64,000 nt of DNA, from assembly GCF_009650765.1 (NCBI RefSeq), contig NZ_CP045740.1:4006001-4070000 (forward strand), written 5' to 3'. Each line of letters opens with the position of its first letter. Position 1 is the first letter of the stretch. The notes beneath the pieces were generated by a model that saw only the letters and a program-made list of their open reading frames with translations, did no database searches and was not told the DNA's origin. Position numbers and translations under genes: made by a program. This document shows, piece after piece, positions 1-23,951 of the stretch. Origin of the DNA: Streptomyces sp. SUK 48 (GTDB taxonomy: Bacteria > Actinomycetota > Actinomycetes > Streptomycetales > Streptomycetaceae).

Positions 1-588
1 GTGAATCTCCGCGACGGGCGGACGGCCCAGGGCTTCGCGCTCGCCGCGGCCCAGGCCGACCGGATCGAGCCGAAGATGTCCGAGCACGATCCAGACCGGC
101 TGTCGGTGTACGGGCAGCTCGTCACGAATGCTGCTGTGGCCGCGTCCCGGGGCGGCGCTTCGCCGGACACCGCGCGGGAGTACCTCTCCCAGGCGCATGC
201 GGTCGGCGCCCGCCTCGGTACGGAGCATGCTCGTGGCCGGCATGCTCAGCCTTTCGGGCCGCTCTACGCTGCCACGCAGGCGATGAGCATCGCCGTCGCC
301 CTCGGCGACACCAGCGGTGCGCTCCGGCTCATGGACACCATCCGGCTGGACGACACGGTGCCGCTCGCCACTCGGGCCCGCTACGGCCTCGACGTGGCGT
401 TGACGCACGTGGAGTGCCGTAGGTGGGATCAGGCTGCCGACACCCTGGAAAAGGTCTGCGGCATGGCGCCCGGGTGGGTGCGGCACCAAATGCTGCCCGG
501 AGTGATCATCTCTCGCCTCGCCGGAGTGTCCGTCGCACGGCTCCGCGGGCTCGCTCACTCGGCCGGTGTGCCCCTCGCCGTGCGCTGA
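1..588 (+). CDS. C-terminal part of a TPR-type regulator-like protein (cut by window start)
   Basis: The frame is open from the first base, so the gene is probably truncated on the left. The 195 residues visible are helical repeats such as 'RRWDQAADTLEKV' and 'ALGDTSGALRLMDTI', resembling the TPR-like C-terminal half of Streptomyces XRE regulators. No helix-turn-helix is visible because that part would lie upstream. It is followed on the same strand by two small genes and the glycosyltransferase operon, so it could be the local regulator of that operon, but this rests on position only. Confidence 0.55.
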   Translation: MNLRDGRTAQGFALAAAQADRIEPKMSEHDPDRLSVYGQLVTNAAVAASRGGASPDTAREYLSQAHAVGARLGTEHARGRHAQPFGPLYAATQAMSIAVALGDTSGALRLMDTIRLDDTVPLATRARYGLDVALTHVECRRWDQAADTLEKVCGMAPGWVRHQMLPGVIISRLAGVSVARLRGLAHSAGVPLAVR

Positions 589-778
589 CCGCTTTCACCA
601 CCACGCCCTGTAGCAGTCCACGAAGCCGCCATCAGCTCCACTGCCACGCTCCATGGCAGTCCTGCCGCAGGACGGCAGCGCAGCAGCACGGTGCGTGGCA
701 GCCCATCGCCGCACGACTTCCTGGCGCCGCCACGAGCCGTGCCTGTCCCGCGCACGGGATCGACAGCACGCTGAGCGC

Positions 779-1222
779 ATGCCGAAATCCCCTTCCGGCG
801 GTATCGGACACGTGCCGGTTGCCGTCTACTCCTGTGCGGCCGAGTCGGCCGCTGTCCGCGAGGCCGAGCGGCGTGCACGCCATTACGCCGACGTCCGGCA
901 CTGGCATGTGGCCGGCACCTGGTCCGATGACGACCCGAGCGTGCCCTTGGACGCCCGCCCGGCTTGGGCCGCTGTCACGAGCGCACTGTCCTCCGGTCTG
1001 GTCCGCGGCATCGTCGTCGCCGCAACCTCCCACCTCGCCGAAGACGCCGGTCAGTTCGCCACGCTCGGTGTCCTCATCCGTGACCGGGGCGGCTTCCTCG
1101 CCGAGGCGACGTCGCCGTCGGCGCGCCAGACCCCGGGGCAGCACGAACGCCGCCGCATCTTGCTCGAAGCCTCTTCGGGCTGGTGGTTGTGGGGAGACCT
1201 CGTGCCGGGAGCCGCCTCGTGA
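779..1222 (+). CDS. Small protein resembling a serine-recombinase N-terminal fold
   Basis: 147 residues starting at ATG 779; a longer upstream reading is low-complexity and lacks coding character. The start 'HVPVAVYSCAAE' and the later 'SALSSGLVRGIVVAAT' recall the beta-strand/helix pattern of the resolvase catalytic domain, but the catalytic Ser context is replaced by Cys-Ala and no DNA-binding domain follows, so recombinase activity is not supported. Its stop overlaps the GTG start of the next gene (GTGA at 1,219-1,222), so the two are translationally coupled. Function unknown. Confidence 0.55.
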   Translation: MPKSPSGGIGHVPVAVYSCAAESAAVREAERRARHYADVRHWHVAGTWSDDDPSVPLDARPAWAAVTSALSSGLVRGIVVAATSHLAEDAGQFATLGVLIRDRGGFLAEATSPSARQTPGQHERRRILLEASSGWWLWGDLVPGAAS

Positions 1223-1626
1223 CCCGGGCACGGGCGGAGGTCGGTGACCTGGTCTCGGACGCTAACGGACGTCACGCCATCGTCACCGACATCAGGCAGG
1301 GCACCGACTGGGTCCTGCGTCCGGAGTCGGGCAGCCCCACGACTGAGCGGGAGACGGACGAGCCCGGCACCCTCGACGTCATCGAGACGCGCAGAACGCC
1401 TGAGCCGAGAGAAGACCACCTGATGCGCAGCCGCCACAAGGCCCGTGGCGGGGCTGTCGATTCCGTCCAGCGGTTCTGCGTCGGCGTGTGGTTCACCGGC
1501 CACCTCGCTGCCGCAGTCACCCTCGGCACGCTGATTACCAACGACCATCAGGACCTCGCCACCAGCCAGCGGCCGACGGTCAGCCAACCGGACGCCAGCC
1601 CGGACGAGGCCGACCGCGCGTTCTAG
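1219..1626 (+). CDS. Hypothetical protein coupled to the preceding gene
   Basis: 135 residues from GTG 1,219, chosen because it overlaps the preceding stop. The N-terminal stretch 'VGDLVSDANGRHAIVTDI' looks like a small beta-barrel. A short hydrophobic stretch near residues 90-110 ('FTGHLAAAVTLGTLITN') may be a membrane segment, and the tail is polar. Nothing identifies an enzyme. It sits about 105 bases before the glycosyltransferase operon on the same strand and could share its transcript. Confidence 0.55.
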   Translation: MTRARAEVGDLVSDANGRHAIVTDIRQGTDWVLRPESGSPTTERETDEPGTLDVIETRRTPEPREDHLMRSRHKARGGAVDSVQRFCVGVWFTGHLAAAVTLGTLITNDHQDLATSQRPTVSQPDASPDEADRAF

Positions 1627-1732
1627 CCCCCTGCGCTTCGCTGCCAGCTCAGCCGCTGGGCGGCGGCAGCTCACGACTCACAGCTCATCACCAGATCACT
1701 TCCCCAGACCACGCCCGGAAGGCGGACCCGCC

Positions 1733-2620
1733 GTGTACGCATTCGGCATCTGCATCGACCGGCACTACCTCACCCCCGGCCTCGCCACGATCACCTCCCT
1801 GGCGGACAGCCTCAGCCCCAGCGCCCGCAAGGCCGCGGCGCTGCGCTTCCTCACCTTCGACCTCGGAGCGTCCCAGGTGCAGCTCCTGGCCCACCTCGCC
1901 AAACGGGTCGGCTTCGGCTCCTTCGCCCTGGCCCGTCGCTCCCCGCTGCGCTCCGCGCGGATGGCGGACGCCTCGTACATCACGGTCACCACCTATCTGC
2001 GCTTCGAGTTCAGTCCCGAGTTCGTCCGCCGCCCGTACTTGATCTACGTGGACGCCGACGTCCTGGTCCGCGGCGACCTGACCGCCCCGCTCGACGCTCT
2101 CCGCCCTGGCGAGGTCGGCGCTGTACGTGACGAGTTCAACCCGGCAGTCGGCCGCTGTCCTGCCCTGCCGGGCGTCGCGGAACGCTGGCCGCGTCTGCGG
2201 GACCGCCCCTACTACAACGCCGGTCTCCTGTGGGCTCACACCGCCGATCTGCCACGGATCCGCCACGGCGTCGAGCAGGCCCTGGCCAGACACCGGCAGC
2301 ACATCCTCCACAACGACCAGGACGCCCTGAACCTGTGGCTCCTCCACGTCGGCCGCGTGCGGGCGGCCGAGGCCGCGTACAACCGGTTCGAGGTGGGCCG
2401 ATACCTCGAACGCGGCGACTGGGTACGCCGCGTCGTCACCCGACCCCTACGCCCGGACCCGGCCGCCCGCCTCATCCACTTCGTCGGCCCGGAAAAGCCC
2501 TGGCAGGCGACGTGTCCCGGTACGGACGACGTGCGGGAGTACCGCACGCTTCTGAAGCGGGCCTTGCGGCATGTCCGTGCGCTGGGCGCTGCCCATCCCG
2601 AGCCGGCGGGGCTTCGATGA
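1733..2620 (+). CDS. GT8-like glycosyltransferase
   Basis: 295 residues from GTG 1,733, with a purine-rich stretch (GGAAGGCGGA) upstream. The protein has the GT-A features of family 8: a metal-binding DxD motif in 'YVDADVLVRGDL' (DAD at about 107-109), 'YYNAGLLW', 'HNDQDALN' and the late 'IHFVGPEKPW', which in GT8 enzymes positions the nucleotide sugar. It should be a cytosolic, metal-dependent, retaining transferase. Acceptor and donor cannot be read from the sequence. It opens a six-gene operon, and its stop overlaps the next ATG (ATGA at 2,617-2,620). Confidence 0.85.
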   Translation: MYAFGICIDRHYLTPGLATITSLADSLSPSARKAAALRFLTFDLGASQVQLLAHLAKRVGFGSFALARRSPLRSARMADASYITVTTYLRFEFSPEFVRRPYLIYVDADVLVRGDLTAPLDALRPGEVGAVRDEFNPAVGRCPALPGVAERWPRLRDRPYYNAGLLWAHTADLPRIRHGVEQALARHRQHILHNDQDALNLWLLHVGRVRAAEAAYNRFEVGRYLERGDWVRRVVTRPLRPDPAARLIHFVGPEKPWQATCPGTDDVREYRTLLKRALRHVRALGAAHPEPAGLR

Positions 2621-3498
2621 CCACGCCGCCCGCCATGGTCTCCCGCGCGTGCAGCACCCTCCTCGGGACACCCGCCCGGACTGCGGGGCGCCTGTCGGCG
2701 GGCTCGCGGACGGCTGTGTTCCGGGTGGGCCTCCGCGATGGCCGAAGCGTGATCGTGAAGCTGTACGACCACACCGCCCGCCGCAACGCACTGACCGAGG
2801 CCGCCGCCATCCGCGCAGCCGGCAGTGCTGTGCCCGCCCCGCAGGTGCTCGGCAGCGGCACTATCTCCCGCGAGGGGGCCACCGCGCTCATCACCTCTGA
2901 CCTCGGCGGACACACACTCGGTGCCGCCGTGCGCTCCGGCCGCATCCCGCATGCCCAAGCCCTCAAAGACCTCGGCGGCCTCCTCGCACGCCTCCACCGA
3001 GCCCCGGTCGAGCAGGCGGTGCCCCGCCGCCCGTTCTTCGACTCGGTCTCCTCCCTGGCCCGCCGCTGCCCACCCGACCTGCTCAACCAGATCGGCCCCG
3101 CCCTCGCCGTCATCGCCGACACGCCGGAGCGAGCACCCACCGTGTGGTGCCACGGCGACATCCACTTCGACAACGTCGTCCTCTCCGGCCCGCACGGCAC
3201 GCGCTACCTGGTCGACTTCACCGATGCCGCCCCGGGTCGGCGAGAGGCAGACGTCGCTCACGCCCTCGTCATGACCGCGGCCCACGCCCCATGGGACCGC
3301 CGCACCCTGCTCGACGCCTACGCGGCGCCCCTGAACGACACCCGGCTCTCGGCGTGGGTGGTCGTCCACACGGCGCGCTGCTGGGTTCACGCCACGCCCG
3401 GCACCAGCCGCCGCTTGTGGTCGGACCGCCTGGCCGACCTGGCCCGTCAGACACCGCACCTCTTCCGCACGCCACGTAGCGAAGGGACACCCCGATGA
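2617..3498 (+). CDS. APH-fold phosphotransferase (small-molecule kinase)
   Basis: 293 residues from ATG 2,617, overlapping the GT8 stop. It has the aminoglycoside/choline kinase fold: a nucleotide-binding Lys in 'VIVKLY' (about residue 48), the catalytic loop 'HGDIHFDN' (179-186) and the metal-binding 'VDFTDA' (199-204). Such proteins phosphorylate hydroxyls of amino sugars, choline, homoserine and similar small molecules. Lying inside a glycosyltransferase/deacetylase operon, it may phosphorylate a sugar intermediate or act as self-resistance; both are inference. It ends in an ATGA overlap with the next gene. Confidence 0.85.
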   Translation: MTTPPAMVSRACSTLLGTPARTAGRLSAGSRTAVFRVGLRDGRSVIVKLYDHTARRNALTEAAAIRAAGSAVPAPQVLGSGTISREGATALITSDLGGHTLGAAVRSGRIPHAQALKDLGGLLARLHRAPVEQAVPRRPFFDSVSSLARRCPPDLLNQIGPALAVIADTPERAPTVWCHGDIHFDNVVLSGPHGTRYLVDFTDAAPGRREADVAHALVMTAAHAPWDRRTLLDAYAAPLNDTRLSAWVVVHTARCWVHATPGTSRRLWSDRLADLARQTPHLFRTPRSEGTPR

Positions 3499-4226
3499 CC
3501 AGCCCTGGACTGACGGTGGTCATTCCTGCCCACAACGAAGCCGCCTACCTGCCCCACTACATGCCCACCGTCCTCGCCTCCCTCGAACGCTGGCAGGAGA
3601 CGAGCGGCGAACGAGGGGAGGTGGTCGTGGTGGACAACGCCTCCACCGACGCCACCGCCGACATGGCCGCCTCGTTCGGCGTCCGGGTGATCAGCGAGAC
3701 CGTCCGCAACATCGGCCGGGCCCGCAACGCCGGAGCGTCTGCCGCCGAGGGCCGCAGGCTGTTCTTCACGGACGCCGACGTCGCCCTGCCCATGGAGGCG
3801 ATCACCGCCGCGGCCACCGCCATGGACAACGGCGCCGTCGGCGGTGCCATCCCGCCCCTGTACACCCCCAAGCGGCTCGGCGCACGGCTGCTGTGCGCCT
3901 ACTGGGACCACTACCGGGAAACGCACGGCGGCGCGCAAGGCGTCGCCCAGTTCGCAACGGCCGCCGCCTTCCGGGCGGTCGGCGGATACCGCGACGACCT
4001 GTTCATGAGCGAAGACGTCGAGTTCTTCCGCCGCCTGACGGCCCACGGCCGCAGCACGAACGCACCGGTCGTGATCCTCGACGAGCTGCGCGTACGCCCC
4101 TCCACCCGCCGTTACGACCAGTGGTCCAGCCTCCGGATGCTGTGGTGGCAGAACCCCGTCACCGCCCGGCTGCGGCTCAACTCCCCACGCATGTGGCGTC
4201 ACTGGTACCAGACCACCGTCCGATGA
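3495..4226 (+). CDS. GT2 family glycosyltransferase
   Basis: 243 residues from ATG 3,495. Family-2 GT-A hallmarks are in order: 'VVIPAHNEAAYL' at the start, 'VVVDNASTDAT' (about 44-54), the metal-binding 'FFTDADVAL' (DAD at 93-95) and 'MSEDVEFFRRL', which holds the catalytic ED pair. No membrane segment is seen, so it is probably a soluble inverting transferase acting on a small or lipid-linked acceptor. It is coupled on both sides by four-base start/stop overlaps, which argues for stoichiometric synthesis with its neighbours. Confidence 0.88.
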   Translation: MTSPGLTVVIPAHNEAAYLPHYMPTVLASLERWQETSGERGEVVVVDNASTDATADMAASFGVRVISETVRNIGRARNAGASAAEGRRLFFTDADVALPMEAITAAATAMDNGAVGGAIPPLYTPKRLGARLLCAYWDHYRETHGGAQGVAQFATAAAFRAVGGYRDDLFMSEDVEFFRRLTAHGRSTNAPVVILDELRVRPSTRRYDQWSSLRMLWWQNPVTARLRLNSPRMWRHWYQTTVR

Positions 4227-5119
4227 CCCCGGAGCCCATCATGACCGCGACGCTGCCCGTACCGGACGCGGAAGGGATCTACACCTTCCCCAACGGCCTC
4301 TTGCACGCCCACCAGCGGTGGACCGAGCACCTGGCCGAGCGCCACCGCGCCCACAACCACCGGATCATCGAGCTCAAGGCCCCGCACAGCAGGCATCGCT
4401 ACCTCATCGAGATGCGCCGCCCGGCCGGCCGCCCGGTGCTTGTCATCGAACCGCACCACGACGACTTCGCCCTGTCCGCCTCCGGCACCTTCCTTGCCCA
4501 TCCCCGACCGCTCACCGTGACCACGGTGTTCACCCGCTCCACCAGCGTCCACCCGACCCTGGAAGGCACCTACGGCACCGAGTCCGCCGTATCCGACCTG
4601 CGCAACCGGGAAGGCGCCGCCGCCCTGGCACCCTTGGCGGCCGACCGGATCCTCCTCGGCCACAGGGACGCCGAACCCCCGTACCGCCCCTTCGACCAGG
4701 ACCGTCTGGACCGGATCACGGACGAGCTCCGCGAGATCGCCGAAGCCCACCCCGACGCCGAACTCCTCGCCCCGGCCTCCGTCACCCGCCACCCCGACCA
4801 CCTCCTCGTACATGCGGCAGCCGTACGACTCGGATGCCGCTGGTTCTGGGAAGACCTCGCTTTCTGGCCCACCTACGCCCTGGCCGGCTGCGACCAGCAC
4901 CTCTTCCGAGCACGCACCCGCTCCTCCCTGCTCCCCGAGCTTGTCGACATCACCGACGTCGTGCTCGACAAGGTCACGTTGCTGCACATGCACGGCTCGC
5001 AGATGCACCCCGCGCGGAAGATGTACCGGCCGATCCGGCACGCCTGGACCACAGCGGCCGACCTCCTGAGCAGCACGGGCGCATTCGCCGAGCGCTTCTA
5101 CCGGACGGAGTCGCTGTGA
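4223..5119 (+). CDS. PIG-L (LmbE-like) N-deacetylase
   Basis: 298 residues from ATG 4,223; an alternative ATG at 4,241 follows. The zinc-binding signature 'PHHDD' is at 77-81 and the second motif 'HPDH' at about 190-193, so both metal-ligand motifs are intact. Family members remove N-acetyl groups from GlcNAc-containing substrates, for example MshB in mycothiol synthesis and the deacetylases of aminoglycoside pathways. In this operon it probably deacetylates an N-acetyl-sugar product of one of the glycosyltransferases. It is coupled to the next gene by GTGA at 5,116-5,119. Confidence 0.85.
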   Translation: MTPEPIMTATLPVPDAEGIYTFPNGLLHAHQRWTEHLAERHRAHNHRIIELKAPHSRHRYLIEMRRPAGRPVLVIEPHHDDFALSASGTFLAHPRPLTVTTVFTRSTSVHPTLEGTYGTESAVSDLRNREGAAALAPLAADRILLGHRDAEPPYRPFDQDRLDRITDELREIAEAHPDAELLAPASVTRHPDHLLVHAAAVRLGCRWFWEDLAFWPTYALAGCDQHLFRARTRSSLLPELVDITDVVLDKVTLLHMHGSQMHPARKMYRPIRHAWTTAADLLSSTGAFAERFYRTESL

Positions 5120-5730
5120 AGATCATCGCGCTCGAAGGGCCGTCGTACGCCGGGAAGTCCACCGCCATTCGCCACCTGTGCACGCGCAGCATCCAGGAGC
5201 GGGCCTTCGTCTCGGACTGCTACGTCCAACACATCGCCCGTCGCACCGACATCCCGCCCGCCCACACCGCATCCGCGGCCGAACAACTCGCCGCGTTCGA
5301 GACCTTCATGGGCATCGAAGGCGCTCGCGTGCGCCAGGCACTCGCCAGCTCCAAGCCCGTCGTCCTCCTCGACCGCTCGGTGGACACCCTCCTGGCCCAC
5401 GCCCACGCGCTCGACGCCCTGTTCGGCTACGACATCCACCACCGCCTGCGCGACCGCCTCCAGGAGCTGCCCTTCCTGCGCCCCCACCACACCCTCTACC
5501 TCGACGTGCCGGCCGAAGAACTGGCCCTGCGCCGCAAGGCAGCCGGGCATACGGCGGCGGAGTCCGAGTACTTCCTCCACGAGCCGGCGTTCCTCACCCA
5601 CACGCGGGACTACTTCGTCTCCGCAGCTCAGCCACCTCTGTCGCGGGAAGTGACCGTCATCCCCGCCGACGCCAGCCCGGATGCCGTCGCGCATGCGGTG
5701 GAAGCCCTCGTAACGTACTGGGCCAGGTGA
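5116..5730 (+). CDS. dTMP-kinase-like P-loop kinase
   Basis: 204 residues from GTG 5,116 overlapping the previous stop. Walker A is 'GPSYAGKST' (about 8-16), followed by the 'LLDRSVDTLL' segment that resembles the DRY/DRS region of thymidylate kinases, and 'LYLDVPAEELALRRKAAG', which matches the lid-side helix. The fold is that of nucleoside monophosphate kinases. Because it sits among sugar-modifying genes, it may phosphorylate a pathway intermediate or supply a nucleotide rather than serve DNA synthesis; that is inference. Seven bases separate it from the next gene. Confidence 0.75.
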   Translation: MKIIALEGPSYAGKSTAIRHLCTRSIQERAFVSDCYVQHIARRTDIPPAHTASAAEQLAAFETFMGIEGARVRQALASSKPVVLLDRSVDTLLAHAHALDALFGYDIHHRLRDRLQELPFLRPHHTLYLDVPAEELALRRKAAGHTAAESEYFLHEPAFLTHTRDYFVSAAQPPLSREVTVIPADASPDAVAHAVEALVTYWAR

Positions 5731-5737
5731 CCGGCCG

Positions 5738-6799
5738 ATGCCCACAGCCCTCTTCGCCTGGCGGCGTACCCCGCCTCCGTTCCTCATCGGCGGAGCCGAG
5801 GTCACCCAGCAACTCCTCGCCGAAGAACTCGCGGCAGCCGGATGGCGCACCGTCTACCTCGGCTCCCACCAAGCGCCCTGGGACCGGGCCCCACAGGTCA
5901 CCCAGGTGCGGACCTTCCTCGACGAGCACGACACCGCGTACGAGGAGTCCCAGGAGGAGCTGCGCTACAGGTGGAACGGAATGGACTGCATCGCAGTGCC
6001 GCAGCAGAAGATCACGTCAGTTCTGCAGCGCCTTCTGGCCCGGGTGCGGCCGGACGTAGTGTTCACCTCACAGGAAGGCGCGGCCGGCATCGCCGCCCAA
6101 GCCCGGCCCAGCGCCCTCGTCGCAGGCATCCTGCACTCAGTCTCCAAGACGGGACTCGGCGTGCTCACCGGGCGCCCGCACCATGGACTGGCCGTCTCCC
6201 AATTCGTTCTCCGACGTGCGCCCCGGACCGACGGCACCCGGCTGTCCGTCCTGTACCCGCCCTTCACACTGCCGGAGCCGGGGCAGCGCCGCCGCGAGCG
6301 AACCAACGCCGTGCTCATGGTCAACCCGATCCCGGCGAAAGGCGCCGACCTCCTTCACCAGCTCATCCGACGCATGCCCGAGCAGCGCTTCACCCTGGTG
6401 GAAGGCTGGTGGAACACCACCGAGGAGTTCGCCAGCTACCCCAACGTGACCTACATGCCCAGGGTCTACGACATGAGTCCCCTCTACCGCAGCCACCGCC
6501 TCCTGCTCGTGCCCTCCACGGTGGAGGACGCCTTCCCCCGCGTGATCATCGAAGCTGCACTGCACGGGACCCCGAGCATCGGCACCGACCGGGGCGGCAT
6601 CCCCGAAGCCCTGGGCAACACGGGGATCGTGCTCTCCGCCAAGGCCGGCGCGGAGGAGTGGGCGGAGGCCCTCCGCGCCGCCGACCACCACACCCTGGGA
6701 AAGGAAGCTCGGCAACGAGCGACCGCCTTCACCCGCCCCCGTCTACCGGACCTCGAACGCCTCGGGATCTACCCTGCGGCGAACGCGCCCTCGACCTGA
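5738..6799 (+). CDS. GT4-like (GT-B fold) glycosyltransferase
   Basis: 353 residues from ATG 5,738. The N-terminal 'FLIGGAEVTQQLLAEEL' matches the glycine-rich acceptor-side loop of GT4 enzymes. The C-terminal half holds 'VPSTVEDAFPRVIIEAAL', the E-x7-E type motif that binds the donor sugar nucleotide, followed by 'GTPSIGTDRGGIPE'. It is expected to be a soluble retaining transferase. It is the last gene of the operon, and its 3' end overlaps the convergent kinase gene by 31 bases (6,769-6,799), which may limit read-through both ways. Confidence 0.85.
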   Translation: MPTALFAWRRTPPPFLIGGAEVTQQLLAEELAAAGWRTVYLGSHQAPWDRAPQVTQVRTFLDEHDTAYEESQEELRYRWNGMDCIAVPQQKITSVLQRLLARVRPDVVFTSQEGAAGIAAQARPSALVAGILHSVSKTGLGVLTGRPHHGLAVSQFVLRRAPRTDGTRLSVLYPPFTLPEPGQRRRERTNAVLMVNPIPAKGADLLHQLIRRMPEQRFTLVEGWWNTTEEFASYPNVTYMPRVYDMSPLYRSHRLLLVPSTVEDAFPRVIIEAALHGTPSIGTDRGGIPEALGNTGIVLSAKAGAEEWAEALRAADHHTLGKEARQRATAFTRPRLPDLERLGIYPAANAPST

Positions 6800-7851
6800 T
6801 CCAGCCGGTCTGTCCACCAGTGCAGCAACGCCTCGTCCGCGGTGAACAGCTCATCGAAGGAGAAGTCACCGCGGTCGTAGTGGAACTCCAGCTGCCAGAA
6901 GTCCGTCATTCGCTTCCACCACAGCCGACGAGCACCATCCACCAGCGCAGACGGCTCCAGCGGCACCACCGACCGATACCCCTCGACGAACGCGGAGACC
7001 CGCGCGAGGTCGAACACCCCGCCCACGCCGAACTGCACCTGCGCTGTCCGTACGACCTCTTCCGCGTACGGGCGCACCGCGATCCGGTCCCAGTCCAGGA
7101 CGCCGGCAAGTTCCCCGCCTTGCCAGAGCAGATTCCGGTACTGCACGTCACCATGCGTCCACCCGTGACCACCTTCAGGCGTCACAGATCGCGGACGATG
7201 ATCGGCGTACTTGAGGACGAGGGCCCGCCGGTGGTCCAAGGCAGCAGCGACTTCCTTGTCGAAGTCGCTGCCTGTGCCCTTGTCGCGTACGGCTGCGGAC
7301 AGCCGCTCGGCCTTCTCCACCGCCCGCTCCGGCGACGTGACGTCTACGGTGATCGTCTCTGGCACCCCGGGCAGCAGCCCTCGACCGCAAGCCCTGCCCA
7401 GGCTCATGTGCAGACGTCCCAGGTGGGTGCCCAGTGCGCTCACCTGGGACAAGATGAGATCAACACCTCGGAGATGAGAACCGGCCACCCACGGGAACAG
7501 ACACCAGGCGGCACCCTCGACCTGCGCCACCAGCGACCCCGAGATCGTGGGGACAGGGGCACTCACCGGAACACCATCAGCACTGAGGGTCGCCAGCACG
7601 CCAAGATTGCGCTGCACCCGCTCCAGCGAGACATCCGTGACCCGCTTCAAAGCGAACTGCCCGACCGGGGTGTCCAGCCTCCAGTTCGCGTTCATCAGCC
7701 CGTCAGCAAGATAGCGGCGCTCTCGCACCTCTCCGAGGCCGAAGGCATCGATCAACTCTCCGAGCACGCTCTCGGCGATATCGCTTCGGGCCGCCACGGT
7801 GGCATCAATCACCCCACGGACGATACGCGAGCACGCCCCATCCGAGCACAA
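6769..7851 (-). CDS. APH-fold phosphotransferase, convergent to the operon
   Basis: Up to 360 residues. The start is uncertain, since no strong ribosome site precedes the 7,851 codon and an in-frame GTG near 7,812 is possible. The domain resembles APH/ThrB-type kinases: 'FALKRVTDVS' supplies the nucleotide-binding Lys, the catalytic loop is 'THGDVQYRN' and the metal site 'GVLDWDRI'. It is the second kinase of this fold in the locus and lies on the opposite strand, so it may serve a separate role such as resistance to the operon's product. This is position-based inference. Confidence 0.8.
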   Translation of the reverse strand: MCSDGACSRIVRGVIDATVAARSDIAESVLGELIDAFGLGEVRERRYLADGLMNANWRLDTPVGQFALKRVTDVSLERVQRNLGVLATLSADGVPVSAPVPTISGSLVAQVEGAAWCLFPWVAGSHLRGVDLILSQVSALGTHLGRLHMSLGRACGRGLLPGVPETITVDVTSPERAVEKAERLSAAVRDKGTGSDFDKEVAAALDHRRALVLKYADHRPRSVTPEGGHGWTHGDVQYRNLLWQGGELAGVLDWDRIAVRPYAEEVVRTAQVQFGVGGVFDLARVSAFVEGYRSVVPLEPSALVDGARRLWWKRMTDFWQLEFHYDRGDFSFDELFTADEALLHWWTDRLDQVEGAFAAG

Positions 7852-8006
7852 CGATCACTCGGACGCCTGCAGCTCTTCCTGGCACTTCCACCCTCTTCGT
7901 CAACAGAGCGGACCTCGGTCACTCTTTTCGGTGATCACTGGGCTGGTCAGCGCCGTCGAGGCCAAGGGGCCCTGCGTGCTGGGCAGCGACGGCGACGGCC
8001 GCGACT

Positions 8007-8366
8007 TTGTGCGGCATCGCCGGCACCTTCACCGTCCTCGACGACCTGGCTGTCTTCCTGCGCTACCTGCTCAACCCCACCACCGCGCCGCAGAGGCCGG
8101 CTTCGGCGCCAGAGTGGAGCGCCTACTCCCTGACCGTGCAGACCGGCGACCTGCAGCCCGAGCGCGGCCTGTTCTGGCACCCAGCCCTCGGCACCACCCA
8201 CGGGCACCGGCATGTGGGTCTCCCCCGCCCAGGACAGGTGGCGGACCTGCTGACCAACAAGCTCCATTACACCCGCGCCCGCCAGCCACTGACGGTCATC
8301 CGCAACAAGTTTCGTGGTCTGGCTTTCTGTAAGGGGGCTAAACCGCCGTTGGCGGTCAGCCGGTGA
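8007..8366 (+). CDS. Short hypothetical protein or gene remnant
   Basis: 119 residues from a TTG codon, with no convincing ribosome site. Residues such as 'EWSAYSLTVQTGDLQPERG' look protein-like, but no domain is recognised and the sequence after about residue 100 loses coding character. It may be a decayed gene of the element. The surrounding 450 bases also lack clear genes. Confidence 0.25.
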   Translation: MCGIAGTFTVLDDLAVFLRYLLNPTTAPQRPASAPEWSAYSLTVQTGDLQPERGLFWHPALGTTHGHRHVGLPRPGQVADLLTNKLHYTRARQPLTVIRNKFRGLAFCKGAKPPLAVSR

Positions 8367-8385
8367 TCGTGCCACGGCAGCCGCC

Positions 8386-8414
8386 AGGCCCTCGTCCTAT
8401 CAGGACGGGGGCCT
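8386..8414 (+). terminator. Strong hairpin (13-bp stem, 3-base loop)
   Basis: Arms at 8,386-8,398 and 8,402-8,414 pair along their full length with one G-T wobble. There is no clean T tract afterwards ('cgggttgttct'), so it may be a factor-assisted terminator or an RNA processing site downstream of the small reading frame. Confidence 0.45.
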
Positions 8415-8823
8415 CGGGTTGTTCTAAGGCCGCTTTCACCACATCACCGGCCAGCATGTCAGGGGTCACCTCACCGGCATGGTTGTGTGCCCGCAGCAGC
8501 GCGCCAGCCAAGTAGGGCCAGTGGCCGGGCCCTCGCCGCGACGCTTGAACTGAACCACTCTCGACTCACCGGTTGCGCTCTCTGGCTGTGGTGATCGTGA
8601 GGGCCTGCGATTGCCCGGCGACTTCGGCCTGGGTGCGATCGACCGGAGCACAGCCGGCGGGAGCCCGCCACTTGACTACTCAAAGCGACAGATCAGCCGT
8701 GTCAGTGACGGCTGGTAAGCCTGTCCTTCAACCAACAAGCCCAGCGCTGCCCAGCCCCGCCCGCTCAGCGCAGGGCGTCCGCCCATACTGATCGACACCG
8801 CACTTCACTGACAGGGAGCACCC
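8415..8823. other. About 400 bases without a recognisable gene
   Basis: Only short mutually overlapping reading frames occur here on both strands. None has a good start site or recognisable composition. The last 30 bases carry 'cactgacagggagcaccc', which includes the AGGGAG ribosome site of the nuclease gene at 8,824. Confidence 0.4.
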
Positions 8824-9741
8824 ATGCTCGACTTTCGCGAGTTGGCGCCAGATGGCGAGGGCTTGGAGCAACTAGTCCGAGAGCTCGCCCTGGCTCTCGG
8901 CTACAGAGCCAAGTGGTCCGGTCGGGGAGCCGACGGCGGACGCGATCTCCTCCTGGAAGAACCAGGTGATGCCCTGCTCGGGGCGAAGACACGGAGATGG
9001 GTGATCTCCTGCAAGCACATGGCCCACGCCAAGGATGGTGCCGGACGTTCGGTCAACGGTGAGGACGTTGGGAGCATTGGCGGCATCGTGGATGCCGTTT
9101 CTCAGCATGACGCTGATGGGTTCCTCCTCGTCTGCTCCACCCAACCTTCAAGCGCTCTGGTAACGAGGCTGGAATCGATCGAGCGAACCAAGGGCGTGCA
9201 CACCCACGTGTGGGACGGGGTGGAGCTCGAACGAATGCTCGCGAGTCCCCGAGGCTGGGCGGTGGCCCAGCGGTTCTTCCCGGTGAGCGCCGAAGCCAGC
9301 GGTTGGAAGGTCTTCGCCACCAGTGAGCCGAACCGGTTCATTGGCATCACCCGGGGCTTCTACCTCCGTGTCGCCAACCGACACGGGAGCGCGGTCGGAT
9401 TCCCGCTCAGCTGGATCGACGAACGCCTGGACAGGGTCGCCTCGATCTCACTGCCCGTTGGGCACGAGATTCGCCCGCGGGGTGTCTTCTACGACGACAA
9501 GCACGGCGGATTCGTCTGGTATCTCGACTACCTGTACGGCTACCGCAGTTGGCAGCCTGAGGAGATCGAGCGGCCGATGGACGAGTACACGTTGCGTCAG
9601 CGGCTCGGCGACGATGGCGTCTCCTATGACGACGGCCAGTACGACAACTTCGAGATCACCTTCAGGAAGGTCAACAGAGGTCACGACGCCTATGACGCGG
9701 ATCACTACCGGTACTACGAGAGTGTCCCCAGCTACGTCTAG
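8824..9741 (+). CDS. Mrr-type PD-(D/E)xK nuclease-domain protein
   Basis: 305 residues from ATG 8,824 with AGGGAG upstream. The N-terminal 120 residues match the Mrr catalytic fold: a conserved Glu helix ('GEGLEQLVRELA'), 'GRGADGGRDLL' carrying the metal-binding Asp, and 'RRWVISCKHM' carrying the xCK catalytic half. The rest (about 160-305) is unfamiliar, rich in Trp, Tyr and Asp, and may recognise a target or bind a partner. Such proteins cut DNA, often modified or invading DNA, in restriction and other defence systems. It is convergent with the large STAND gene at 9,961, and the two could be one defence locus. Confidence 0.8.
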   Translation: MLDFRELAPDGEGLEQLVRELALALGYRAKWSGRGADGGRDLLLEEPGDALLGAKTRRWVISCKHMAHAKDGAGRSVNGEDVGSIGGIVDAVSQHDADGFLLVCSTQPSSALVTRLESIERTKGVHTHVWDGVELERMLASPRGWAVAQRFFPVSAEASGWKVFATSEPNRFIGITRGFYLRVANRHGSAVGFPLSWIDERLDRVASISLPVGHEIRPRGVFYDDKHGGFVWYLDYLYGYRSWQPEEIERPMDEYTLRQRLGDDGVSYDDGQYDNFEITFRKVNRGHDAYDADHYRYYESVPSYV

Positions 9742-9960
9742 GGCGCTGGTAGCCGACGATCCGCCCCCAAGCGACGCCCCCGAAGCAGCACAGGCGAGGC
9801 GGACCATGCCGAAACGCTGAGCTTGACCGACAGGCTCAGCGTCCCAGCCTGATCACTTGCCGCTGCCCTCGGCGAGGGTTTGGGCGACGAGGACGTTGGC
9901 GTGGCCGTGGCCGTGCCGACTGCTCATGCCAACCATGCCTGGAACCAATTCAGAGCAGTT

Positions 9961-12900
9961 TTAGCCGAGTTGGCGTTGCATGTCCCGTGCAGATGCCAAC
10001 AGCCCGTCCGGGGCGCGACAACCATTCTCGTACACCATCACGACATCGATCAGTTGCCGATCTGCCGCTGCGGGTTCGCCAAGGAGCAGATACGCGTAGG
10101 CCAAGTTCAGCCGGGCGCTCAGGGTTTCCTCGTCGTCGCTGCCGAGGTGCGAGGCCAGTGGGTCGACCAGGGCATCCAGTTCGCGAGCGGCAAGGCCTAC
10201 TCGGCCCTGACGCAGAGCGACCGCCGCCGCCTGACTGAGCGTTCTCAAGGTATCAGGGTGCCTCGCGCCCAGGACGTCGCTTTGCGCCTCAGCCAAGAGC
10301 CGCAGCTGATGCTCGGCGGCGGTGTCCTGCTCTAGCTCGAAGTACAGGTCCGCCAGGCGTCGACGCACCGAGAGCAGAATGGGGTGGCCGGTGCCGTGGG
10401 AGGCAAGGAGATAGGTCGACAGGGACTGCAGCACGGCCTGGGCCTCGACGTGTCTGTCGAGCAGACGAAGCGTGTCGGCGTGGCCCAGGCGAGCGTCGAC
10501 TGTCTCAGGGTGAGTGGGACCAAGCGCTGCTGCCAATGCCTCGGCCGCAGCACGGAAATGTTCCTCGGCCTCGGCGGGCCTTCCCGTCTCGGCGAGCAAC
10601 CCAGCGAGAGTACCCCGGGCCCGGTGGGAGGACGTATGCCCTCGGGGGGCAATACGGGCCCACGTCGCGTGGATATCGCGCAGCTCTGCCTCCGCCTCGT
10701 CGAACCGACCGAGATGCAGAAACGCGTAGCAGACGTTGTGCCGGGTAACCAGAGTGCTCGGATGATCGTGGCCCAGCGTCTGTCCTTCCAGGCGGAGAGT
10801 CGCCTCGAACTCGACGAGGGCCTGCTCGACCTCACCGAGTTCGAGCAGCAGGTCCGCCAGTTCGTGGCGGGCGATGAGCGTGGTGGGAGAGGTGTCGCCC
10901 AGCGCGTTCGCCATGTCGGGGAGCAGTTGCTCGAACGAGCTGCGGGCCTCGGCGAGGTTTCCTTGGCCACGCAGCGCTCTGGCAAGTTCGTGGCGCGCCG
11001 CGAGGGTGGTCGAATGCTCGGGGCCCAGGACGGCGGTCAGATGCGGAACGAGTCCAGAGAACTCCGCGTGCGCGCCCTCGACGTCTCCCCGCTGGAGGCG
11101 AATCCGGACCAATTCGTGGCGAACGGTCAACGTGTTCTCGTGATCCGGACCGAGGACCTGCGTCGCTGTGCGCAGAACGTCACCGAAGTCTGCCTCCGCT
11201 TCGTCGAGACGACCTTGATCGCGTTTCAGCAGGGCGAAGTTGTGCCGTGCCGCCAGGACGGTTCTGGGACCGTCATCGGGAGCGGTGCGTGCGTACGCGG
11301 TCAGGGCATGGCTGAACTGCTCCTCCGCCACTGACCACTGGCCTGACTGCTGCGCGTACACCGCCGCCCGGTTCGCGAGATCGCCTCGCATCCGGTGCTC
11401 CAGCCAGGCAGCGTGCGTCGTGTCTGCCGCCACGTGGACGCAGTGCGGCAGCAGCAGCCGCCACATAGGCCAGTTCGCCGGGGCTACCGGGTCGAGCCCC
11501 TTCGCCACCATCGCGAGCAGGGCGGTCGACAGCGTCGTGTACAACGGTGCCGCCTCGACGGCGGCCGGCTGGGTACGGGTGATCTCCCGGACGAGCGGGT
11601 GGACGATCAAAGTTTCGGCCGTCGAACCGAGCCCCTCGAAGCGCCGACGGTGCAGCAGTCCGCACCCCAGCAGACCGCGTACCGCAGCTTCGAGCCCGGG
11701 AGAGGACAAGTCCTTGAAGTCGTTTGCGGTAGCGAGCACGCTCCTACGAAGCAGGGCGACCGGCAGCGGCTCAGGTGCGAAGAACGAGATCAGCCGGAAC
11801 AGTGGCCGCGCGGCCATTATGCCCCGCATCTCCAGTAGATCCAGCGACATCTCCCATGTACGGGCAAGCGGGCCGTGTGGATCGTGTGGCAGCGCTGCGA
11901 CCGCCTCGGCGAACTCCGCGTCCAGTGCGTCCCGATACGCAGTGAATGTCCGAGGAACCTCCGACTCGGGGAGCACCAGGTCGCCGCTGGTCATCGCCAG
12001 ATACTTGCCCACGAGTAGCAGAGCGAGAGGGAGGCCGCCGAGTCGCCGCGCCAGGTGTACTGCATCGCGCTCAGAGCCGGCGTCCGGCGCCAGTTCACGG
12101 AGCATCTCGGCGCCTTCGGCCTCGGAGATCGGGGCAACGGCATGGACCGCCGCCGACGTCCACCAAGAGCCGGAGTTCTGGTCGCGGCTCGTCACCACCA
12201 CCATGTTGCCCGCGACCGGCTGCCTGATCCAGTCCCGCACCACGGCCGGGTCGTCGGCGTTGTCGACGACCAGCAGCCAGGGCCCAGCGGTCGAGCTGTT
12301 CAGAGCGTCCCACAGCACATCCCGGGCCGCCTCGTGGTTGCGCCACACCTCACGCGCTTCGGCGCGCTCCACCCCTGCTTGTACGGCGACCTCTCGCAAC
12401 GCCGCCACGAAGGCAGACGGGGTCGCGGCGTCGACCCACCACACTGTCCGCTGTGCGGCGACCCGTCGAGCGAGCGCCAGCGCGACCGTGCTTTTGCCGG
12501 TGCCGCCCATCCCGCATAGGACCAATCGCCCGCCAGCATTCGCCACCCGCTCCTCCAACGCGGTCAGCAGCACCTCCCGCCCTCGGATCCGGTGCTCGAC
12601 CAAGTCCTCGGGCACCGCCACCGACAGGTCGCCGACGGACGCGGTGCTCATACCCGGCAGCGGCGGAAGACTCAGATATCGCTCGGCCAGGAAGTAGAGC
12701 TCGGGCCTGGTCAGGAGATCTGTCAGAGCAACTGCATCGAAGATCTCCAGCTTGACCTGGTGGACATCGCGCGCCTCGTCCTCCAGCGTGTGTCGTGTGC
12801 TGACCGGCACCGGGGCCACTGTGAAGTACAACACGCGGTGTACGGGACTGCCTTGACCGCAGATTGAGGCCAAATCCCGTCTGATCTTGGCGGGGACGCG

Positions 12901-13185
12901 GTCCTTCTGGATCGTGCAGGCCAAGACGACCTTCTCCCTGGAAGCCAGGCGCGCGAAAGCCGAGACCGGCGACGGTGACGCGACAAGGTTCGTCCAGAAA
13001 CTCTCGGCGTCCCGACCCTGATCGCCCCCGCTGCTCACGGGGCCGGTCGCCGGCACCAAATTGCTCACGAGCACCAGACGGGCCACGTCGAGACAGAGCT
13101 GTTCGAACTCGTGATGCGCGTTACGCTCCCCGAGAGTATCCAGGGCGTACCGGATCAACAGGCCAGACTGCCTGGGGGTGTTCAC
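9961..13185 (-). CDS. Nuclease-like / NB-ARC STAND ATPase / TPR protein, candidate antiphage sensor
   Basis: 1,074 residues from GTG 13,185, with GAGGAG upstream. N-terminal 150 residues: 'GGDQGRDAESF' then 'KVVLACTIQKD', the spacing and residues of a PD-(D/E)xK nuclease with a Q-x-K style active site. Residues of about 200-500: NB-ARC ATPase with Walker A 'GMGGTGKST', Walker B 'WLLVVDNADD' and 'VVVTSRDQ'. Residues of about 600-1,074: kinesin-light-chain-type TPRs repeating 'LGPDHENTLTVRHEL'. The effector-switch-sensor order is that of Avs/NLR-like immune proteins. It lies beside an element boundary and opposite another nuclease gene. A regulatory role is less likely given the effector domain. 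Confidence 0.8.
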   Translation of the reverse strand: MNTPRQSGLLIRYALDTLGERNAHHEFEQLCLDVARLVLVSNLVPATGPVSSGGDQGRDAESFWTNLVASPSPVSAFARLASREKVVLACTIQKDRVPAKIRRDLASICGQGSPVHRVLYFTVAPVPVSTRHTLEDEARDVHQVKLEIFDAVALTDLLTRPELYFLAERYLSLPPLPGMSTASVGDLSVAVPEDLVEHRIRGREVLLTALEERVANAGGRLVLCGMGGTGKSTVALALARRVAAQRTVWWVDAATPSAFVAALREVAVQAGVERAEAREVWRNHEAARDVLWDALNSSTAGPWLLVVDNADDPAVVRDWIRQPVAGNMVVVTSRDQNSGSWWTSAAVHAVAPISEAEGAEMLRELAPDAGSERDAVHLARRLGGLPLALLLVGKYLAMTSGDLVLPESEVPRTFTAYRDALDAEFAEAVAALPHDPHGPLARTWEMSLDLLEMRGIMAARPLFRLISFFAPEPLPVALLRRSVLATANDFKDLSSPGLEAAVRGLLGCGLLHRRRFEGLGSTAETLIVHPLVREITRTQPAAVEAAPLYTTLSTALLAMVAKGLDPVAPANWPMWRLLLPHCVHVAADTTHAAWLEHRMRGDLANRAAVYAQQSGQWSVAEEQFSHALTAYARTAPDDGPRTVLAARHNFALLKRDQGRLDEAEADFGDVLRTATQVLGPDHENTLTVRHELVRIRLQRGDVEGAHAEFSGLVPHLTAVLGPEHSTTLAARHELARALRGQGNLAEARSSFEQLLPDMANALGDTSPTTLIARHELADLLLELGEVEQALVEFEATLRLEGQTLGHDHPSTLVTRHNVCYAFLHLGRFDEAEAELRDIHATWARIAPRGHTSSHRARGTLAGLLAETGRPAEAEEHFRAAAEALAAALGPTHPETVDARLGHADTLRLLDRHVEAQAVLQSLSTYLLASHGTGHPILLSVRRRLADLYFELEQDTAAEHQLRLLAEAQSDVLGARHPDTLRTLSQAAAVALRQGRVGLAARELDALVDPLASHLGSDDEETLSARLNLAYAYLLLGEPAAADRQLIDVVMVYENGCRAPDGLLASARDMQRQLG

Positions 13186-13638
13186 CAGTCAGCTCCTCAC
13201 CTCGGCTCCCACAGGAATCACCGACAGTCTGCCGCACCCCTCTGACAATGGTGCTGATCAAACCGCGAACACCCGGGACCGGCTGAGGAGTTGCTGTACC
13301 GTCGCACCCCCTCGCGGCCGTTCGCGTCGGGAACATCGGCTGCATGGACACCCTGCTCGTCGGCGAAATGGTCACCGTCGACGGGTGCCGGGACCGACAA
13401 CTTCCTGCGACATGTGCAATCGCGACCGAGGCTGTCGAGCCGCCCGGGAAACAGCGGTGATCGGCCGACGCAAGCACCACCCACGCCCCTAGCCAGACAG
13501 CTCAGCGACGTCGTGCCCATAGCGTGCCCTTAAGAGCGGAAAGCAGCGGTCAACAGCGGCGCAAACCGACCCGCACGACCACCCGAAGAGATGACGTATG
13601 CCCAGGTCAGAGGCATAGCACCCGCCCAAGCGCCGTCG
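13186..13638. other. About 450 bases without a gene, next to the attachment site
   Basis: No convincing gene. It holds the ribosome site and presumably the promoter of the STAND gene (left end). It also holds a short direct repeat around 13,541-13,560 (AGCAGCGGTCAACAGCGGC) and an inverted repeat TATGCC/GGCATA at 13,597-13,602 and 13,612-13,617. These might be integrase arm or excisionase sites, given their place inside the element end; this is speculative. Confidence 0.35.
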
Positions 13639-13683
13639 CTTCCCAAGCTGAGAGCGCGAGTTCGATTCTCGTCACCCGCTCCA
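13639..13683 (+). other. Attachment site: 3' part of tRNA-Gly(CCC)
   Basis: These 45 bases read as the anticodon loop with CCC (CTTCCCAAG), the 3' anticodon arm, variable loop, T arm (GCGAG/TTCGATT/CTCGT), 3' acceptor strand CACCCGC, discriminator T and encoded CCA. The sequence upstream (CGCCGTCG...) does not pair to close the anticodon stem and supplies no D arm or 5' acceptor strand, so no functional tRNA can be made here. The bases are followed at once by a perfect terminator. This is the structure left at the far end of an element that integrated into the 3' end of a tRNA gene. Confidence 0.82.
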
Positions 13684-13690
13684 TGATTGA

Positions 13691-13718
13691 GGCCCAGGTC
13701 GGAGACCTGGGCCTTTTT
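13691..13718 (+). terminator. Rho-independent terminator of the tRNA-Gly gene
   Basis: A perfect 10-bp stem (13,691-13,700 with 13,704-13,713), loop GGA, and a run of five T. It belongs to the chromosomal tRNA gene whose 3' fragment precedes it. Confidence 0.9.
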
Positions 13719-13830
13719 GCTGTTCCTGCCCGTGAAGCGGCGCGGGCCGGAAAAGTTTCCGATGCGATGCAACCCGGTGCCGAGCCCGTGCGTAGAGGAG
13801 TCGACAACCACAGCTCACGGGGAGTTCCTC

Positions 13831-14844
13831 ATGCACTCGAACCGTTCGGCCGGGCGGGCCGTCGGCCGTCTCGGGGCCGCTGTCGCGGCCTGTGTCGCTC
13901 TGCTCTCGGCCGTCGGCTGCTCGGCGGACGCGGGTACCGGCGTTCGGACGGCCGGCACACCGGACGCCGAGGCGTCCGCCGCGGCGGCCGCGAAGGCCGG
14001 GGGCGGCCACAAGGACGGCAAGGGCGACCCGTCCGGCGGCCGGTCCGCCCCGTCCGTGCCGGAGCCCGCCGTGCTCGCGCGGGCGCAGGTGCACATATCC
14101 GACGGGGACACGGTCGGTGTGGGCATGCCGATCTCCGTCACCTTCCCCCGGCCGGTCCCCACCGCCGATCGCAAGGCCGTGGAGAGCTGGCTGCGCGTGC
14201 AGACCTCCTCCGGCACCACCGGCGCCTGGAGTTGGGTGCGGGACAGGAACCTCCTGGACGGGCAGCGGGTGGACTTCCGCCCCAGTGGCACGTACTGGAA
14301 GCCGGGCACCAAGGTCACTCTGCGCCGGGGCTCGCACGGCGTGAGCCGCTTCACCATCGGCCGCTCGCTGATCGCCACCGTCGACACGAAGACGGACATG
14401 ATGACCGTCGACACCGGCGGGAGGACGAACCGCGTCCCGATCACCGCGGGGAAGCCGGGGCTGGACACCTGGAAGGGGACGATGGTCGTGATGGACAAGC
14501 AGCCCAAGGTGTTCATGGACTCCCGCACCGTGGGCATGGGCCCGAACGACACGTACCACGGCTACTACTACTGGGCCCTGCACCTGACGACGTCCGGTAC
14601 CTACGTGCACCAGAACCCGCACGCCGACACGGCGGCCGGGCACAGCAACGTCACCCACGGCTGCGTCGGCCTCGCCACCACCACCGCCAAGGGCTTCTAC
14701 GGCCAGGTCATGGTCGGCGACGTCATCAAGGTCACCGGGTCGGACAAGGACACGGTCGCCGCCGGGAACGGCTACGGTGACTGGAACCTGACCTGGCAGC
14801 AGTGGCTCGACCACAGCGCCGCGGGCGCCACCACGACCGCATGA
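13831..14844 (+). CDS. L,D-transpeptidase lipoprotein (Ig-like plus YkuD domains)
   Basis: 337 residues from ATG 13,831, with GGGGAG upstream. A signal peptide ends in a lipobox-like 'LLSAVGC' (Cys30), so it is probably exported and lipid-anchored. A Gly/Lys/Ser-rich linker leads to an Ig-like domain (about 90-190, 'VGMPISVTFPRPV'). The YkuD catalytic domain follows, with 'HGYYYWALHL' and the active-site 'VTHGCVGL'. It makes 3-3 crosslinks in peptidoglycan or attaches proteins to it. The stop overlaps the start of the ECF sigma gene (ATGA), an unusual coupling that suggests co-regulation of envelope stress genes. Confidence 0.9.
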   Translation: MHSNRSAGRAVGRLGAAVAACVALLSAVGCSADAGTGVRTAGTPDAEASAAAAAKAGGGHKDGKGDPSGGRSAPSVPEPAVLARAQVHISDGDTVGVGMPISVTFPRPVPTADRKAVESWLRVQTSSGTTGAWSWVRDRNLLDGQRVDFRPSGTYWKPGTKVTLRRGSHGVSRFTIGRSLIATVDTKTDMMTVDTGGRTNRVPITAGKPGLDTWKGTMVVMDKQPKVFMDSRTVGMGPNDTYHGYYYWALHLTTSGTYVHQNPHADTAAGHSNVTHGCVGLATTTAKGFYGQVMVGDVIKVTGSDKDTVAAGNGYGDWNLTWQQWLDHSAAGATTTA

Positions 14845-15413
14845 CCCCCGTCGCAACGGCGGCGGTACACCACCCGCCCCGCGCCGCAGCGAGAGAGCAC
14901 CACCAGGTGACCGAAGCCGAGTTCGACCTCTTCTACACGGCTGCCTATCCGCGGCTGGTCGGCCAGCTGTACGCCCTGACGGGCGACCAGGCAGAGGCCC
15001 AGGACGTGGTCCAGGAGGCGTTCATCCGCGCCTGGGACAGGCGGGCGTCCGTCCTGAACGGCGACCGGGATCCCGAGGCATGGCTCCGCACGGTCGCACA
15101 CCGCCTGGCGATGAGCCGGTGGCGGCGAGCGCGCCACTGGTGGCAGCTGGTCCGGGGCGAGCACGCCCCGCGGCCGGTGGCCGAACCGAGCCCGGACCAC
15201 GTGGCGTTGGTCGCCGCTCTGCGGTGCCTGCCGGAAGCCCAGCGGACCGCCGTCGTGCTGCATCACCTGTGCGATCTGAGCGTGGAGCAGATCGCCGCCG
15301 AGACCGGCGCGGCTCCCGGCACCATAAAGGCGCGCCTCTCACGCGGCCGCACCGCACTCGCCGCTCACCTCGTGAGCGAAGCACCGCACCCGACGGAGGA
15401 AGCCTGTGCCTGA
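14841..15413 (+). CDS. ECF RNA polymerase sigma factor (SigE family)
   Basis: 190 residues if ATG 14,841 is used. A GTG at 14,907 starts exactly where similarity begins ('VTEAEFDLFYTAAYPRLV') and may be the real start. Region 2 contains 'DQAEAQDVVQEAFIRAWDR'; region 4 contains 'LSVEQIAAETGAAPGTIKA', the -35-binding helix-turn-helix. It directs polymerase to a small regulon, probably cell-envelope genes given its L,D-transpeptidase neighbour. The following membrane protein may act as its anti-sigma factor. Confidence 0.9.
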   Translation: MTPVATAAVHHPPRAAAREHHQVTEAEFDLFYTAAYPRLVGQLYALTGDQAEAQDVVQEAFIRAWDRRASVLNGDRDPEAWLRTVAHRLAMSRWRRARHWWQLVRGEHAPRPVAEPSPDHVALVAALRCLPEAQRTAVVLHHLCDLSVEQIAAETGAAPGTIKARLSRGRTALAAHLVSEAPHPTEEACA

Positions 15414-23886: not shown

Positions 23887-23951
23887 TCCCGCCGGTGCAG
23901 AATTGCTGAGCACGGTGGGACGAGAATCGGCCGGACCGCCGGAAAACCCCA

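Follow-up and report, generated by a model that had tools for sequence, protein, structure and literature searches.

The window analysed here is a stretch of 64,000 nucleotides, positions 4006001-4070000 of the Streptomyces sp. SUK 48 genome, which is a single contig of 8,341,671 bases. Its features and those of the adjoining DNA on the left are given below, the latter in "own" coordinates, which equal the genome position minus 3,990,000 or the window position plus 16,000. The functions of the cargo products are predicted from their domains.

Window 1..13637: right half of a very probable integrated element of 28,285 bp, delimited by a repeat pair; the left half lies outside the window, at genome 3991353-4006000
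Leftmost in the element: 424-aa ORF, no family (Pfam scan)
After the 424-aa ORF: ASCH protein (Pfam scan)
After the ASCH protein: 703-aa GNAT protein (Pfam scan)
Own 5556-6809, minus strand: 417-aa tyrosine integrase, open frame (PF00589, 6.1e-11)
After the integrase: 85-aa HTH protein, then ORFs without assignment (Pfam scan)
Before the relaxase: NikA/MobC-like protein (match below the Pfam cut-off)
Own 11152-12888: 578-aa relaxase, open frame (PF03432, 1.8e-9, above cut-off)
Window 1..588, plus strand: 3' part of the gene for a 400-aa HTH protein, which starts 614 bases before the window
Window 1733..2620, plus strand: family 8 glycosyltransferase, cargo (PF01501, 4.5e-14)
Window 2230..3498, plus strand: APH-fold kinase, cargo (PF01636, 4.1e-23)
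Window 3893..5119, plus strand: PIG-L type deacetylase, cargo (PF02585, 1.1e-8)
Window 5738..6799, plus strand: group 1 glycosyltransferase, cargo (PF13692, 4.1e-15)
Window 6769..7851, minus strand: second APH-fold kinase, cargo (PF01636, 1.9e-22)
Window 8824..9741, plus strand: Mrr-type restriction endonuclease, cargo (PF04471, 1.3e-7)
Window 9961..13185, minus strand: 1074-aa AAA/NB-ARC-like (STAND-like) NTPase with TPR repeats, cargo (Pfam)
Window 13500..13637, plus strand: putative element-side attachment arm, with CGTGCCC repeats at 13512-13518 and 13523-13529 (att consensus and profile)
Window 13638..13685, plus strand: very probable attR core, a 48-bp repeat of the tRNA-Gly(CCC) 3' part (whole-genome 45-mer search and base-by-base comparison)
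Window 13689..13715, plus strand: intrinsic terminator hairpin after the tRNA fragment (folding versus shuffles)
Window 13831..14844, plus strand: L,D-transpeptidase (YkuD), first gene of the right flank, outside the element (Pfam and flank comparison)

The kinase ORF at 2230..3498 overlaps the preceding ORF and its true start is probably further in, and the ORF at 5842-8133 is unlikely to be a gene, matching no family and overlapping others. PADLOC, run on ten element ORFs, gave its best candidate for the Mrr-type protein (E 1.5e-6) and none for the 1074-aa NTPase. The integrase was recognised by general phage-integrase models; Xer models also matched it, though weakly and under their cut-off. 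The relaxase contains a HADDHIHI stretch, which we take to be an HUH-like motif.

The sequence-only reading had described the 45 bases at window 13639-13683 as the 3' part of a tRNA-Gly(CCC) gene that lacks its 5' part and is followed by a terminator, and had taken them for the junction of an integrated element. The match is exact from the anticodon loop to CCA, and the hairpin at 13689-13715 folds with -23.4 kcal/mol (z -5.5, 0 of 200 shuffles as good). The 5' half of the tRNA is indeed missing, and the upstream bases fail to rebuild the anticodon stem. ARAGORN places no tRNA gene in the window, and Rfam gives no match in the window at gathering score; at a loose threshold over 13480-13760 it gives two weak matches far under their gathering scores. 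Searching the whole genome with the 45-mer (up to 3 mismatches) returned two matches, both exact and both on the plus strand, and none for the reversed 45-mer used as a control. The left copy, at genome 3991354-3991398, belongs to an intact, same-strand tRNA-Gly(CCC) gene (3991325-3991398, ARAGORN). Full identity between the copies extends over 48 bp (window 13638-13685, which is genome 4019638-4019685, versus 3991353-3991400), the copies are 28,285 bp apart, and the terminator hairpin stands 3' of both.

A chance tRNA-like stretch is ruled out by the exact second copy in the intact tRNA-Gly(CCC), and a chance origin of the repeat at 13639-13683 is excluded. The broader alternative, in which there is no integration junction and the fragment is a tRNA duplicate in decay or resembles a tRNA by chance, is favoured by nothing except that an empty site was not found (see below), and the exact 48-bp repeat, the integrase and relaxase genes between the copies and a conserved attachment arm make it extremely improbable. 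This arm lies on the element side of the fragment and recurs at such copies in relatives; a profile of arm and core, built from 61 copies with the window copy among them, matches the window copy at E 2.1e-59. The second exact copy within an intact tRNA-Gly(CCC) on the left, the integrase gene between the copies and the arm all bear out the junction claimed earlier. For an integrated element whose right end lies in the window, the support is the strongest that sequence can give, and window 13500-13722 is almost certainly the attR of a 28,285-bp integrative and mobilizable element (IME) in the tRNA-Gly(CCC) gene. The companion claim that everything to the left is cargo holds only as far as genome 3991353, about 14.6 kb past the left edge of the window, and fails within that limit for much of the element, where backbone genes (those for integrase, relaxase and others) take the place of cargo.

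In the proposed mechanism, the circular element would bring along its arm as well as its own copy of the 3' part of the tRNA. The tyrosine integrase would recombine the site of the element with the tRNA gene at the start of the repeat, close to the anticodon loop, so that the tRNA would be rebuilt at the left end of the element and the 3' fragment of the chromosome's own tRNA would be left at the right end, in the window.

Two classes of element were compared. An IME has an integrase between matching att sites and a relaxase, both of which are present, and no conjugation channel of its own, while an AICE carries a Rep gene together with a transfer gene of the TraB/FtsK type. In the 19 element ORFs scanned with Pfam, a set that left out some short ORFs and the 400-aa HTH protein, there was no domain of TraB, Rep or type IV secretion, and hence neither an own channel nor the AICE genes; the element is therefore filed as an IME, which appears to be its best reading. 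The relaxase and the NikA/MobC-like protein suggest transfer via the conjugation channel of another element. Like the IMEs outlined in the accessible text of PMC5704250, the element has an integrase and a relaxase, att sites at both ends, a tRNA target and no channel of its own seen; unlike them, it has a cargo of glycosyltransferases, kinases and defence-like genes. At 28,285 bp it is also smaller than the two IMEs/ICE whose sizes are given for Streptomyces in the available part of PMC9513070 (86.0-99.7 kb). The position of the integrase, 4.2 kb from the left att and not beside it, counts against this explanation, as do the sub-threshold NikA-like match and the failure to find an empty site (see below); in several relatives the integrase lies a few hundred bases from the tRNA, hence genes were acquired or relocated between the two. 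Taken by itself, the element is a tRNA island of an ordinary type.

Related elements at the same tRNA occur in G136, G117 and G104, with which the element shares 78-93% aa identity in the ASCH, GNAT, integrase and HTH proteins. With the element's own relaxase as the sole query in relatives' loci, relaxase identity is 75% in G136, 49% in G204 and 45% in G104 and G166, and the MobC-like protein has no match among these loci at E ≤ 1e-15. The cargo in the window finds matches in 29 other loci only for a 99-aa kinase piece (G080, 83%) and for the NTPase (G239, 30%). The left flank with the tRNA has some match in 150 of 150 same-genus genomes. The right flank is matched in 13 of 391 other genomes at E ≤ 1e-40 and lies within 1.5 kb of the tRNA in 0 of 29 relatives' loci, matches stopping at the terminator. 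The empty site that the sequence-only reading had proposed for comparison was not found with these flanks, either at the 29 tRNA loci or, via the right flank, in sets of 150 and 392 genomes (own included), and the nearest substitute is G327, the closest relative with both flanks (left 94.3% over 1446 bases, right 91.6% from window 13747). The 22 kb between tRNA and right flank in G327 are mostly different DNA, so that in two near relatives the same site is filled differently. An integrase relative (68.8% DNA identity) lies beside the tRNA in G327, further att copies follow (two strong, one partial and one doubtful at E 0.02), and some interior stretches resemble positions 23.6-26 kb of the SUK 48 window. 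Four loci (L016, L022, L024 and L039) have a tRNA-Gly(CCC) gene without encoded CCA, and their bases past CGCTC differ.

The association between integrase and site was examined through a relaxase scan of GTDB species genomes, which gave at least 595 stretches, at least 560 of them confirmed, and from which 80 loci, all titled Streptomyces, were kept. Integrases at least 55% identical to the element's own occur in 8 of the 80. The tRNA-Gly(CCC) or its att lies in the stretch in 6 of these 8, as against 0 of the other 72, five of which have tRNA-Pro(CGG) instead. Five of the six site-bearing loci have the intact tRNA-Gly(CCC) (Streptomyces sp. CCM_MD2014, S. albogriseolus, S. olivaceus, S. spinosisporus and S. 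sp. ASQP_92) and one an att copy (L219); the remaining two of the eight have no site in the stretch, the integrase of L265 being near the stretch end. This is unlike the AICEs, whose integrase sequence and site are given as uncorrelated in the available part of PMC9513070, a discrepancy that weighs against the IME explanation. The relaxase family, with its at least 560 confirmed stretches, is very common in Streptomyces and stands mostly with other integrases.

In related genomes tRNA-Gly(CCC) is followed by head-to-tail rows of units, up to 11 in the stretches read. The 30 loci compared, which include our own and two with the tRNA only, were chosen partly for high copy number, so that the unit sizes are biased; they hold 118 units, of which 29 are below 2 kb, 34 of 2-4 kb, 26 of 4-8 kb, 22 of 8-20 kb and 7 of at least 20 kb, placing 63 of the 118 below 4 kb. 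No reverse-strand att match was found in the 30 loci at E ≤ 1e-8. Many units of 1-4 kb are without an integrase and carry toxin-antitoxin, restriction or effector-like genes. The 108 proteins of units below 8 kb from 16 loci gave 88 Pfam families, including PIN (5), CcdA (4), AbiEii (2), RHS repeats (2) and reverse transcriptase with group II intron maturase (2). Three small units are recurrent, with AbiEii, with CcdA and PIN, and with Phd/YefM beside a DUF6247 match, respectively; in another copy of the Phd/YefM unit, a 218-aa ORF with no assignment was called.

Two explanations of these rows have to be weighed. The rows may be an accretion of successive elements that decayed to CIMEs and were reshuffled by homologous recombination between att repeats, with no cassette system, and the chances of this are about even. 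They may instead reflect an integron-like cassette system anchored in tRNA-Gly(CCC), which would add to the IME explanation and not compete with it. Elements like our own would bring the integrase, and small integrase-free cassettes with a one-sided att would be gained, lost and shuffled singly; this is quite possible, if not quite probable. Accretion is already known in Streptomyces, and CIMEs are known as well (PMC9513070 and PMC5704250, in the parts available); integrase fragments at unit left ends in G187, G166, G279, G075, G065, G101, G067 and G057 fit decay. The head-to-tail rows, the 63 small units and the single orientation of units argue for cassettes, with the reservation that the arrays were partly picked for high copy number.

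The distribution of integrases bears on both explanations. Integrase matches occur in 17 of the 30 loci, and the first unit has one in 13 of the 17; in the multi-unit loci with any match, unit 1 has one in 10 of 14, which speaks for cassettes, the exceptions being G187 (whose tRNA is outside the stretch), G166, G142 and G279. Against cassettes, many of these matches are fragments, and 14 of 18 genomes searched whole have no integrase match at E ≤ 1e-60; of the four with a match, that of G075 and that of G166 have an internal stop. No tblastn match to the integrases was found in 13 of the 30 loci, and many units elsewhere are also without one. Unless an integrase, perhaps a more distant one, acts on them in trans, most integrase-less arrays would be frozen.

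The attachment site of the units is well conserved. The consensus of 61 copies outside intact tRNAs (18 loci) consists of an arm of ~165 bp, the core and the terminator, the blocks of the arm being two CGTGCCC repeats, GAGCGGACAACA and CGGTCA blocks and a CAGGTCAG block before the core. The arm is present at 113 of 121 non-tRNA copies in the 30 loci, a count that leaves out a G101 copy shown by ARAGORN to be the tRNA, and is absent in whole or in part at 8; this conservation speaks for cassettes. CGTGCCC stands twice, without mismatch, in 64 of 118 arm regions versus 28 of 2960 random 80-mers, and at least one occurs at 14 of 118 unit left ends versus 103 of 2960 random 80-mers, so that the site is one-sided in most units. 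Our own element has one CGTGCCC on the left too (own 1460).

The copy number of the site was compared with that of a control tRNA. A 34-mer of the tRNA 3' part (2 mismatches) is absent from 85 of 295 same-genus genomes, single in 60 and double in 72, and has at least 3 copies in 78, at least 5 in 28 and at least 10 in 4; some of these copies lie elsewhere in the genome. Among genomes with a match, out of the same 150 genomes, at least 3 copies are found in 41 of 110 for tRNA-Gly(CCC) versus 14 of 126 for tRNA-Thr(CGT). Among the intervals listed, the median spacing of neighbours is 6.2 kb for tRNA-Gly(CCC) (n=83) versus 16.2 kb for tRNA-Thr(CGT) (n=46), and spacing is below 4 kb in 30 of 83 versus 3 of 46 (Fisher p 1.3e-4), a comparison with one control tRNA, with within-genome intervals that are not independent and with Gly intervals from the 295-genome search, yet less biased than the unit sizes of loci picked for high copy number. 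Spacing and copy counts together imply that tRNA-Thr also collects elements, but fewer small ones. The more numerous and closer copies at tRNA-Gly(CCC) support cassettes, and the rarity of close spacing at tRNA-Thr(CGT), where copies are also repeated, argues against accretion. Other genera of the family have several copies of the tRNA 3' part too (copies only, arms aside).

The recurrence of units provides further insight. Pairing units across genomes gave 38 pairs with similarity over more than half the unit length; in the 23 best, the interiors are alike over 0.89-1.00 and 0 of 34 comparisons of their neighbours are homologous over more than half (highest 0.36). Whole units thus recur beside unrelated neighbours, and single units appear to move between genomes. 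Units 5 and 6 of G203 match units 2 and 1 of G029, in swapped order. Both observations agree with cassettes, and accretion is hard to reconcile with units of 1.0-1.4 kb that recur full-length with independent neighbours; however, the 23 pairs come from only 8 unit families and so are not independent. Unit movement and the enzyme responsible are inferred from sequence comparison, a limit that also weighs against the cassette explanation.

The boundaries of eight pairs were profiled. On the left, identity is at least 0.88 past the core (+40 to +80) and lower before it in 6 of the 8, and gradual or unclear in the other 2. On the right, the 2 closest pairs keep identity up to the core, and in the other 6 it falls from about -220 to -140, before the core, as exchange within the arm would give under accretion. 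The left boundaries, and the change at the core on both ends in the two closest pairs, count against accretion, while sharp right boundaries in only 2 of 8 count against cassettes. Mean arm identity is 0.72 for the unit's own arm (23 pairs), 0.62 for that of the previous unit (18 pairs) and 0.60 for random arms (193). The arm seems to travel with its unit, yet is less alike than the interior, which may reflect faster change or exchange within the arm, both equally compatible.

Known systems resemble these rows in different respects. AICE accretion at tRNA-Arg in Streptomyces, described in the available part of PMC9513070 as one to three TraB-type elements and a remnant, and the tandem AICEs known from PMC3218068, in the portion available, share with them head-to-tail, repeat-flanked elements in one tRNA. 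The rows differ from the accretion of PMC9513070, as far as its text was available, in having up to 11 units, many of 1-4 kb, and our own element lacks a TraB domain. Many small units, like the CIMEs of the accessible text of PMC5704250, are att-flanked and appear to be without integrase or transfer genes, judged by searches with the integrases and our own relaxase as queries. Unlike CIMEs, homologous whole units recur with unrelated neighbours in different genomes, and the conserved one-sided arm is kept in most. With integrons and CALINs, as outlined in the available part of PMC11389934, the rows appear to share small cassette-like units in one orientation, a putative recombination site at one end of each and an integrase mostly at the anchored end. 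In contrast to the integrons of that text, a tRNA gene serves as anchor, the site is a tRNA 3' part with double-stranded direct arm repeats instead of an attC hairpin, and the integrase was found by general phage-integrase models. Accretion, tandem AICEs and CIMEs cover part of what is seen, and integrons and CALINs are nearest in behaviour. Integrons too carry toxin-antitoxin genes among their cassettes.

No description of tRNA-Gly(CCC) cassette arrays was found in the literature (titles and abstract beginnings, most subscription journals being outside coverage). We tentatively propose, at somewhat less than even odds, an integron-like system at tRNA-Gly(CCC) in Streptomyces and relatives, in which an integrase lying mostly beside the tRNA captures and shuffles cassettes with a one-sided att and elements of our own type are the conjugally mobilised carriers of the integrase. 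The cassette att would consist of the arm of ~165 bp with its CGTGCCC repeats, followed by the tRNA 3' part and the terminator, and the cassettes would carry toxin-antitoxin, restriction and effector-like genes. If this is true, these soil bacteria gather small genes for defence and competition at one fixed, readily located site and rearrange them there without a classical integron, and the flow of such genes could be followed from strain to strain.

Beyond the element, the right flank begins with a module at 13747-15844 that comprises the L,D-transpeptidase, a sigma factor and a neighbour. In G388, G326 and G304 this module has no att match or tRNA within the 60 kb fetched from each, and in other genomes its two genes are arranged differently. 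At window 19630-19861, two adjoining short stretches with an 8-base overlap lie ~4 kb apart in G003, G092, G016, G109 and G117, as if ~4 kb were missing here. The segment at window 23429-26233 has several homologous copies in relatives near the same tRNA, including G117, G080, G049, G067 and G327, and is found at two places in G003.
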